This document shows, in pieces, positions 31,117-38,552 of a DNA stretch of 64,000 bases. The notes under the pieces were generated by a model. That model was not told where the DNA came from and ran no database searches. It saw nothing but the letters and a program-made list of their open reading frames with translations. The stretch is from Cellulomonas hominis (GTDB lineage Bacteria; Actinomycetota; Actinomycetes; Actinomycetales; Cellulomonadaceae): the NCBI RefSeq assembly GCF_014201095.1, contig NZ_JACHDN010000001.1, forward strand, positions 2,418,001 through 2,482,000. Reading direction: 5' to 3'. The translations under genes and the position numbers were made by a program. Numbering within the stretch: the stretch's first letter is position 1; each line of letters starts with the position of its first letter.

Positions 31117-32414
31117 CCGGCCCGCTCGCCGTGCTGCTCGGCGGTCGTGTGGCCGGCCTGCTCGAGCGGACCCGCCGCAACGTCCTGCGGTTCGCGTACG
31201 ACCCGGACGCCACGCGCACGGGTCGGACGCCCCTGTCGCTGTCCCTCCCCCTGGCGAGCCAGGTGTACACCGGGGAGCCCGTCGACAGGTTCGTGCGCGC
31301 CCTGCTGCCCGAGTCGAACGGCGCGCTGGCCGCGATCGAGCGCCAGCACCCCGGTGTGGACCGGTACGACCCGCTCAGCCTGCTCGCGGCGATCGGCCAG
31401 GACTGCCCCGGTGCCGTGCAGTTCTGCCACCCCGACGACGTGGACGCGACGCTGACTCGGACCGGCTCGCTCGAGCCGCAGTCGGCCGGGCAGATCGAGC
31501 AGCGACTCGCCGAGCTCCGCATCGACGAGGACGCCTCGTGGACGATGCCCGGCGAGCACTGGTCGCTCGGCGGGACGCAGCCCAAGTTCGCGTTGCGGCG
31601 CATCGGCGACCGGTGGTTCCAGGCGCAGGGCTCCCAGCCCACGAGCCACATCCTCAAGCCCGGCGTCCACGGCCTGACGTCGCAGGCGCTCGTCGAGCAC
31701 ATCAGCATGCGCGCGGCCGCCGCGTGCGGGGTCGACGTGGCGCACACCGAGTACCTCCAGGTGAAGTCCGAGAGCGCCGTCGCGATCACGCGCTTCGACC
31801 GCCGCGCCGACGGTGACGTCCTGCTCCGGCTGCACCAGGAGGACCTGTGCCAGGCGCTCGGCGTCGGTGAGAAGTACGAGGAGTACGGCGGGCCGACGGC
31901 GGCCGACATCGTCCGGCTGCTGCGCGAGCGGTCCGCGACCGCTGCCGCCGCACGCCGCAACGTGGACCGGTTCGTCGACGGGCTGGTGTTCAACACGGTC
32001 GTCGCCGCTCCTGATGCGCACGCCCGGAACTACGCGGTGCTCCTGGACGGTGAGGACGTGCGGCTGGCGCCGCTCTTCGACGTCTCGACGAGCCTGCCGT
32101 ACGACGCGCCCCGGCGGGGTCGCGTGCTCTCGATGTCGATCGGCGGTGAGGTCGACGCCGGGCGGGTCGGGCGGGAGCAGTGGCGGCGGTTCGCGGACGA
32201 GAACGACCTCGACGTGGAGCGGGTCCTCGACCGGGTGCGGCTGGTCGCCGGGACGGCGCCGGGGGCGATGCTCGACGCGCTCGGCGAGGTCGAGGACTGG
32301 GACGGGAGCGTGGCGGGGCTGCGCGAGCGCCTGGAGGCGGGGGTCGCCGGGTACGCGCGCGGATCGGCGATGCGGTGGGCCCCGTGGGGATCGAACCCAC
32401 AACCCGCGGATTAA
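31113..32414 (+). CDS. hipA: HipA-like serine/threonine kinase toxin
   Basis: A 433-residue toxin kinase. The N-terminal HipA-N1 domain (LLGGRVAGLLERTRRNVLRFAYD) is followed by the kinase core: SLGGTQPKFALR glycine-loop region, HILKPG for ATP binding, the catalytic APDAHARNYAVLL and LAPLFDVSTSLPY (metal-binding Asp). Known HipA proteins phosphorylate glutamyl-tRNA synthetase and arrest translation. The last 13 codons and the stop lie inside the tRNA-Lys gene on the other strand, reading WAPWGSNPQPAD, an unusual end probably created when the module came to rest beside the tRNA. Confidence 0.93.
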   Translation: MTGPLAVLLGGRVAGLLERTRRNVLRFAYDPDATRTGRTPLSLSLPLASQVYTGEPVDRFVRALLPESNGALAAIERQHPGVDRYDPLSLLAAIGQDCPGAVQFCHPDDVDATLTRTGSLEPQSAGQIEQRLAELRIDEDASWTMPGEHWSLGGTQPKFALRRIGDRWFQAQGSQPTSHILKPGVHGLTSQALVEHISMRAAAACGVDVAHTEYLQVKSESAVAITRFDRRADGDVLLRLHQEDLCQALGVGEKYEEYGGPTAADIVRLLRERSATAAAARRNVDRFVDGLVFNTVVAAPDAHARNYAVLLDGEDVRLAPLFDVSTSLPYDAPRRGRVLSMSIGGEVDAGRVGREQWRRFADENDLDVERVLDRVRLVAGTAPGAMLDALGEVEDWDGSVAGLRERLEAGVAGYARGSAMRWAPWGSNPQPAD

Positions 32415-32448
32415 AAGTCCGCTGCTCTGCCAGTTGAGCTAGAGGCCC
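32376..32448 (-). tRNA. tRNA-Lys (TTT)
   Basis: 73-nt cloverleaf with acceptor GGGCCTC paired to GGGGCCC (one G-U pair and a weak pair), discriminator A, and anticodon loop CTTTTAA giving TTT (lysine). Its 3' half is overlapped by the end of hipA on the plus strand. tRNA 3' ends are frequent integration sites. Confidence 0.95.
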
Positions 32449-36310: not shown

Positions 36311-37453
36311 ATGACGTCCGTCCCGCAGCTCGTCGAGCTCGCGGCGCTGTCCGCGGTCGACCCCGTCCCGTGGGCCCGCTCGCAGATGGCGTTCACGCTC
36401 GGCTTCCACATCATCCTGGTGCCGCTCGGCGTCTCCTGGGCGGCGATGGCCCTGATCGCGAACTACCGCGGCGTGCGGCACGGGGACCGGGACGCCCTGG
36501 AGCTCGCGCAGCGCTGGTCGAAGTACATGGCGGTGACGTTCGCGGTCGGCGCGGTGACCGGCACGGTGCTGAGCTTCGAGTTCGGGCTGCTGTGGCCGCG
36601 GTTCATGGGGCAGTGGGGCGACGCGTTCGGGGTGCCGTTCGCGTTCGAGGGGATCTTCTTCTTCCTCGAGGCGATCTTCGTCGCGATCTACATCTTCGGG
36701 TGGCGCCGGCTGCGGCCCTGGCCGCACTTCTGGACCGGTGTGCCCATCGTCGTCACGGGCGTGCTGGGGTCGGTGTCCGTCGTCGCCGCGAACGCCTGGA
36801 TGAACGCCCCGACCGGGTACACGCTCGGCGACGACGGGCAGATCGTCGACGTCGACCCCGTGCGCGTGATCTTCAACGACTCGATGCCGTGGCAGGCCGC
36901 GCACATGGTCGTGGCGGCGTACCTGGTGGGCGGGTGCCTGGTCGCCTCGGTGTACGCGTTCGCGATGCTGCGGGGCCGGCGGGACCGGTACCACCGGCTC
37001 GGGTTCACCATCGCGTTCACGGTGGCGGCGATCGCGGCGCCGGTGCAGATGGTGGTCGGCGACGGGCTGGCGCGCTGGGTGTACGAGAACCAGCCCGTGA
37101 AGTTCGCGGCGATCGAGCTGGTCCCGGAGACCAGCTCGGACGTGCCGGAGACGCTGCTGGGCCGGCTGGGCGCGGACGGCGAGGTCGAGGGCGGGTTCCC
37201 GATCCCGGGGATGGCGTCGTGGCTGTCGGACCCGAGCACGGGGCGCGACACCGTGGTGCAGGGGCTCGACTCGGTGCCGGCGGACGAGCGGCCGACCAAC
37301 CGGGAGGTCAACATCGTGCACCTGGCCTGGGACGTCATGGTCGGGATCGGCACGCTGCTCCTGCTCCCTCGCCGCCCTCGTCCGCGAACTGCATGTCGAG
37401 CTCGATGGGCGCGGCCATCCGCGCGACGTCGGCCCGGTGCGCGTCCACGATGA
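36311..37453 (+). CDS. cydA: cytochrome bd oxidase subunit I, 3'-truncated
   Basis: Quinol oxidase subunit with haem ligands in the membrane. The first about 350 residues are normal: ARSQMAFTLGFHIILVPLG with the high-spin haem His, the GRQ-like PRFMGQWGDAFGVPFAFEG, and PWQAAHMVVAAYLVGG. After VMVGIGTLLLL (about 37,363) the frame runs into antisense zwf sequence and continues with meaningless PRRPRPRTACRARW to 37,453. About 100 C-terminal residues and cydB are missing, so the gene as shown cannot give a working oxidase. GGAGGGAGG precedes ATG 36311. Confidence 0.85.
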   Translation: MTSVPQLVELAALSAVDPVPWARSQMAFTLGFHIILVPLGVSWAAMALIANYRGVRHGDRDALELAQRWSKYMAVTFAVGAVTGTVLSFEFGLLWPRFMGQWGDAFGVPFAFEGIFFFLEAIFVAIYIFGWRRLRPWPHFWTGVPIVVTGVLGSVSVVAANAWMNAPTGYTLGDDGQIVDVDPVRVIFNDSMPWQAAHMVVAAYLVGGCLVASVYAFAMLRGRRDRYHRLGFTIAFTVAAIAAPVQMVVGDGLARWVYENQPVKFAAIELVPETSSDVPETLLGRLGADGEVEGGFPIPGMASWLSDPSTGRDTVVQGLDSVPADERPTNREVNIVHLAWDVMVGIGTLLLLPRRPRPRTACRARWARPSARRRPGARPR

Positions 37454-38552
37454 TCCGGATGCCCGTGGCCGGGTCCAGGCGCACGACCAGCTGGTTCGGG
37501 TCGGGGTCCCGCCCGGCGGGGCCGAACCCGAGGCGCGGCGGGCGCTTGAACACCAGGCGCAGCTCGGTCTGGGTGGCCCGCAGCCGCTTGCCGGTGCGCA
37601 GGTAGAACGGCACGCCCGCCCACCGCCAGTTCTCGATCTCCAGCCGGAGCGCGGCGTACGTCTCGGTGGTCGACCCGGGGGCCACGCCCGCGATGCCCTG
37701 GTACCCGTCGTACTGCCCGCGGACGTAGTGCCGGGGGTCGGCCTCGACCACGGCCCGGAACAGCGCGACCTCGGAGTCCTTCAGCGTCGCGGGGTCCCCG
37801 CGGGACGGCGGCTCCATGGCCGCGGCGCCGACCACCTGCATGAGGTGGTTGACCACCACGTCGCGCAGCGCCCCCACCGGGTCGTAGAAGTGCCCGCGGT
37901 CGTCGACGCCGAAGTCCTCGGCCATCGTGATCTGCACGCTGTCGAGGTAGTTCCGGCTCCACAGCGGCTCGAGGATCGCGTTCGCGAACCGCAGGTGCAG
38001 GATCTCCTCCAGGCCCATCTTCCCGAGGTAGTGGTCGATCCGGAACAGCTGCGACTCGTCGAGGTGCTGGTGCAGCTCGGCGGCCAGGGCGTGCGCCGAC
38101 TCCTGGTCGTGCCCGAACGGCTTCTCGACGACGACGCGCGCGTGCTCGGTCAGCTCGGCCTCCGCCAGGCCCTGCACGACCCGGCCGAACAGGGACGGCG
38201 GGATCTCCAGGTAGAACACGGGCTGGGCGGCACCGTCCACCGCCTTGGCGACCCGCTCGTACGTCTCCGGGTCGGTGAAGTCGCCGCTGACGTACGACAG
38301 CCGGGCGGCGAACCGCGCGAACACCGCCTCGTCGACCTCCTGCCCCGTCGCCTCGATGGACGTCCGGGCGCGCTCGACCAGGCGCTCGAGGGTCCAGTCG
38401 TCCGCGGCCACGCCCACCACCGGCAGGTCCAGCAGGCCGCGGCTCTCCAGGCGGTAGAGCGACCGGAACGTCATCACGCGGGCGAGGTCGCCGGTGATGC
38501 CGAACACCACCAGGACGTCGGCCGGGCGCGCGTCCCCCGCTGCTGCATTCAT
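37335..38552 (-). CDS. zwf: glucose-6-phosphate dehydrogenase, 3'-truncated
   Basis: First enzyme of the oxidative pentose phosphate route. The N-terminal VVFGITGDLARVMTF binds NADP and RIDHYLGKMGLEEI is the active-site signature. The protein is normal up to about FADEGGEG (near 37,366), then reads antisense cydA (AGAACRSRP) and stops at 37,335. Roughly 70 C-terminal residues are missing. ATG 38552 follows GGGGAGGGGAC. The sequence departs from the family at exactly the place where cydA does, so the two genes are joined tail to tail by a rearrangement or an assembly error. Confidence 0.85.
   Translation of the reverse strand: MNAAAGDARPADVLVVFGITGDLARVMTFRSLYRLESRGLLDLPVVGVAADDWTLERLVERARTSIEATGQEVDEAVFARFAARLSYVSGDFTDPETYERVAKAVDGAAQPVFYLEIPPSLFGRVVQGLAEAELTEHARVVVEKPFGHDQESAHALAAELHQHLDESQLFRIDHYLGKMGLEEILHLRFANAILEPLWSRNYLDSVQITMAEDFGVDDRGHFYDPVGALRDVVVNHLMQVVGAAAMEPPSRGDPATLKDSEVALFRAVVEADPRHYVRGQYDGYQGIAGVAPGSTTETYAALRLEIENWRWAGVPFYLRTGKRLRATQTELRLVFKRPPRLGFGPAGRDPDPNQLVVRLDPATGIRIIVDAHRADVARMAAPIELDMQFADEGGEGAGAACRSRP

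Follow-up and report, generated by a model that had tools for sequence, protein, structure and literature searches.

Deletions by illegitimate (end-joining) recombination that leave gene remnants behind are a known kind of event in bacteria. The junction described here lies in a 64,000-nucleotide stretch of the Cellulomonas hominis genome (the window; C1:2418001-2482000) and resembles such events in having no repeats and in a genome where Ku is present; no distinctive feature sets it apart, and end joining would be its presumed route. The closest described locus is a cluster in three genomes of the same genus (G028, G009 and G059), in which cydA, cydB, a GH15 gene and a gene for an NDH-2-like protein face zwf. 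In the window, the same orthologs of cydA and zwf likewise face each other, whereas about 4.86 kb of the relatives' DNA (about 5 kb in G059) is gone. We conclude that the junction is very probably best explained by the simple deletion of some 4.86 kb.

The initial annotation had reported that a plus-strand cydA and a minus-strand zwf are cut at one junction, beyond which each frame reads the antisense of the other gene, and our analysis bears this out. For cydA and zwf alike, the alignments to the intact genes of G028 and G009 break off between positions 37365 and 37366. The cydA-like 5' remnant (cytochrome bd subunit I; 36311..37365, + strand), assigned by its PF01654 match and by alignment to intact orthologs, is followed in frame by an out-of-family tail of zwf antisense at 37366..37453 (+). 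The 5' remnant of the zwf paralogue (glucose-6-phosphate dehydrogenase; 37366..38552, - strand, starting at 38552) was assigned by PF02781, TIGR00871 and its match to the full-length protein P0001, and runs on into a tail of cydA antisense at 37335..37365 (-). Both tails were delimited from the open reading frame list and the junction position. Since two unrelated families end at the same base, chance can be dismissed, as the initial annotation had argued, and one event cut both genes.

The CydA product belongs to its family, matching PF01654 at positions 1-328 of 418 with 340.3 bits against a cut-off of 26.2. It lacks approximately the last 135 of 487 residues, among them the GRQPW stretch, which 116 of the 120 CydA relatives listed possess, as do the oxidases of known structure 9r2g and 5doq; this stretch lies beyond the junction and is hence absent from the remnant. 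The Zwf product matches PF02781 only at positions 2-222 of 296, so that a full-length C-terminal domain is missing, while its TIGR00871 match extends up to position 408 of 486 and, at 411.6 bits against a cut-off of 400.6, identifies the equivalog despite the truncation. In the full-length Zwf P0001 (466 aa) the PF02781 match reaches 292; this protein equals the remnant at 394 of 395 residues, with one difference, and the remnant is without about 70 C-terminal residues. Judging from these missing parts, both remnants are most likely non-functional, and we propose that both open frames at the junction be annotated as gene remnants.

Close orthologs of both genes were found in G028 and G009, with 89% identity for zwf in both genomes and with 94% and 95% amino acid identity, respectively, between the CydA remnant and its intact orthologs. 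In these relatives cydA and zwf are intact and convergent, and the points corresponding to the junction lie 4,859 bases (G028) or 4,865 bases (G009) apart; the same order and orientation with this extra DNA is what a simple deletion leads one to see. The G028 interval holds the remaining 3' portions of cydA and zwf and, between them, a cydB next to cydA (PF02322, 208.7 bits), a gene for a GH15 protein (PF00723) with a trehalase-like N-terminus and a gene for a Pyr_redox_2 protein. The Pyr_redox_2 protein is probably an NDH-2-like dehydrogenase; none of the 25 NCBIfam matches listed for it reached its own cut-off. The finding that cydA and zwf already sit together and face each other in G028 and G009 speaks against the proposed chimeric join between unrelated loci. 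Nor did an inversion or translocation, also put forward in the initial annotation, agree with these genomes, where the genes are convergent at a single locus and 4.86 kb further apart.

An inversion or translocation breakpoint would account for two genes stopping at one base and predicts that the missing 3' parts, together with cydB, lie side by side elsewhere. Searches of the 4,489,147-base genome, which is a single contig, with PF01654, PF02781, PF02322 and full-length P0001 found neither the missing 3' parts nor a second cydB. As both genes are, moreover, already facing neighbours in two relatives, we regard such a rearrangement as scarcely credible. The lost segment itself was sought with the corresponding 5,001 bases of G028, and no other copy was found in the genome; 40 of the 1449 first-look candidates of this search were scored, among which a copy of about 88% identity would be expected to rank. 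The search listed the two junction stubs and 42 further matches. The best of the latter (67% over about 1 kb) is a paralogue at C1:4225714-4226742, and others reached 79% over 105 bases, 76% over 91 bases within the other cydB, and up to 93% over 30 bases.

The initial annotation had also noted the loss of 3' ends from two essential-type genes and the absence of an expected cydB. Both genes are indeed cut, and no cydB adjoins the truncated cydA; however, these are not the only copies. Another, complete cydA lies at C1:331464-332831 and is followed by the genome's sole PF02322 match (C1:332955-333905), about 2.1 Mb from the junction, and a complete zwf is found at C1:4208943-4210397. The truncated pair is thus a second set in a genome that has complete copies elsewhere, and the apparent loss of two core genes is explained by a deletion of an ordinary kind within a cluster of accessory genes. 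The complete copies could cover for the remnants. Compared with its G028 ortholog, a third zwf paralogue (near C1:1604179-1605538) switches frame close to the C-terminus, and is either a pseudogene or affected by a sequencing indel.

To describe how rare the junction is, 400 bases around it were searched for in 81 genomes of the same genus. Only the genome of the window itself had the contiguous junction, and it was absent from all 80 others. Both halves were matched well in four of these (G028, G009, G059 and G058), in each case at separate places, and the rest of the matches were short. At the protein level, relatives were taken as the best 120 of 8000 scored matches for each of CydA and Zwf, and the window's out-of-family tails occurred in none of the 120 CydA and none of the 120 Zwf relatives listed. 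Several of the best-matching proteins with a named source belong to Cellulomonas. These data bear on the possibility that shortened proteins are conserved and normal for the group. Both remnant frames are open, with no stops or frameshifts, as such conservation would have it, and three of the 240 listed relatives (P0075, P0150 and P0214, at about 82% identity) are themselves shortened. The ends of these three are, however, unlike those of the window, and given that the four other genomes matching both halves lack the junction, we attach almost no probability to this explanation. Relatives with the same shortened proteins, which the initial annotation had named as evidence against a break, were not found among these genomes and listed proteins.

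Having named a simple deletion as the preferred reading, we looked at its ends. In neither G028 nor G009 do the two ends have a base in common where they would be joined, and the longest word that occurs less than 150 bases from each end was 8 bases in G028 and 9 bases in G009, neither above the random level (mean longest shared words of 9.5 for 28 random pairs in G028 and 10.1 for 27 random pairs in G009); as these ends were judged on relatives that differ by about 12% in DNA, the true ancestor may have had 1-2 bases of microhomology. A repeat-mediated deletion was rejected, since the words at the ends are shorter than the random means and no base is common at the join. One match to Ku was found in the genome. 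Because the ends share no bases and the genome encodes Ku, the deletion would fit end joining of the Ku type.

The same end sequences bear on an assembly error, in which an intact 4.86-kb segment present in the strain was skipped by the assembler; such an error would look the same as a deletion. It would fit with the near-identical full-length proteins found in other data, and with the frameshift of another zwf paralogue of this genome against G028, as a sequencing indel could have caused it. The lack of repeats at the ends nevertheless makes it unlikely that the assembler dropped a segment: in two relatives the endpoints have no base in common and share words no longer than random places do, leaving no repeat to explain a collapse. 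The genome is also a single contig with a completeness of 100 and a contamination of 0.76. Taken together, these data leave an assembly error as an unlikely, though the least unlikely, alternative to a simple deletion.

For the deletion, we propose the following course. An ancestral accessory cluster would have carried cydA, cydB, the GH15 (trehalase-like) gene and the NDH-2-like gene on one strand, with zwf facing them on the other. On the line of descent leading to this strain, a single loss of about 4.86 kb would then have joined mid-cydA to the later part of zwf, removing the 3' ends of both genes, the complete cydB and the genes for the GH15 protein and the dehydrogenase. The loss was presumably tolerated since complete cydAB and zwf copies remain. 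The event is ordinary gene loss. That the loss was selected, with an accessory oxidase/dehydrogenase/G6PD cluster shed after a change of niche and the remnant transcripts, each now continuing into the antisense of the other gene, still expressed, seems to us very improbable.

The loss looks recent, because near-identical full-length proteins exist in public data: besides P0001, the full-length CydA P0121 (487 aa) equals the remnant at 349 of 351 residues and differs at 2. These two proteins come from different sources ('lgn' for P0121 and 'jgi' for P0001) and represent near-identical alleles, not one intact genome; the longest contigs behind them measure 9,973 bases (P0121) and 7,667 bases (P0001). 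Old decay was rejected, as the open reading frame list gives no stops or frameshifts in either remnant frame. The dN/dS ratios of the remnants against G028 and G009 were 0.10-0.15, compared to 0.04-0.09 between G028 and G009, and selection on the remnants may have been slightly relaxed.

Of 58 genomes, the window's own among them, 55 had Zwf relatives of some kind and 56 had CydA relatives, nearly all of them distant paralogues. Relatives of P0121 at an E value of 1e-100 or better were found in 13 of the 221 genomes of the family, the window's own counted, and the cydA of the junction locus is therefore accessory. G039 has a zwf ortholog at 73% and is without a close cydA. In a scan of named genomes, the best 80 of 581 relatives had best-segment identities of 46-79%, in a set that may not include records of the window's genome itself.

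Gene order in the cluster of G059 is the same as in G028, and G059 keeps about 5 kb where the window has the junction; the order is changed in G058 and in G144, a member of a different genus in this family. In G144, whose genome is 83% complete, the NDH-2-like gene (L190:5376-6604) is matched as several separate pieces and may also be broken. Since the DNA flanks outside the cyd/zwf cluster differ between the window and G028 or G009, the neighbourhood of the cluster is variable. A tRNA-Lys(ttt) gene lies a few kb from the cluster in the window (32374-32448, - strand) and is also found near it in G028 (L161:6222-6296) and G009 (L162:6571-6645), with different genes between and around them; the spot beside this tRNA gene is variable.
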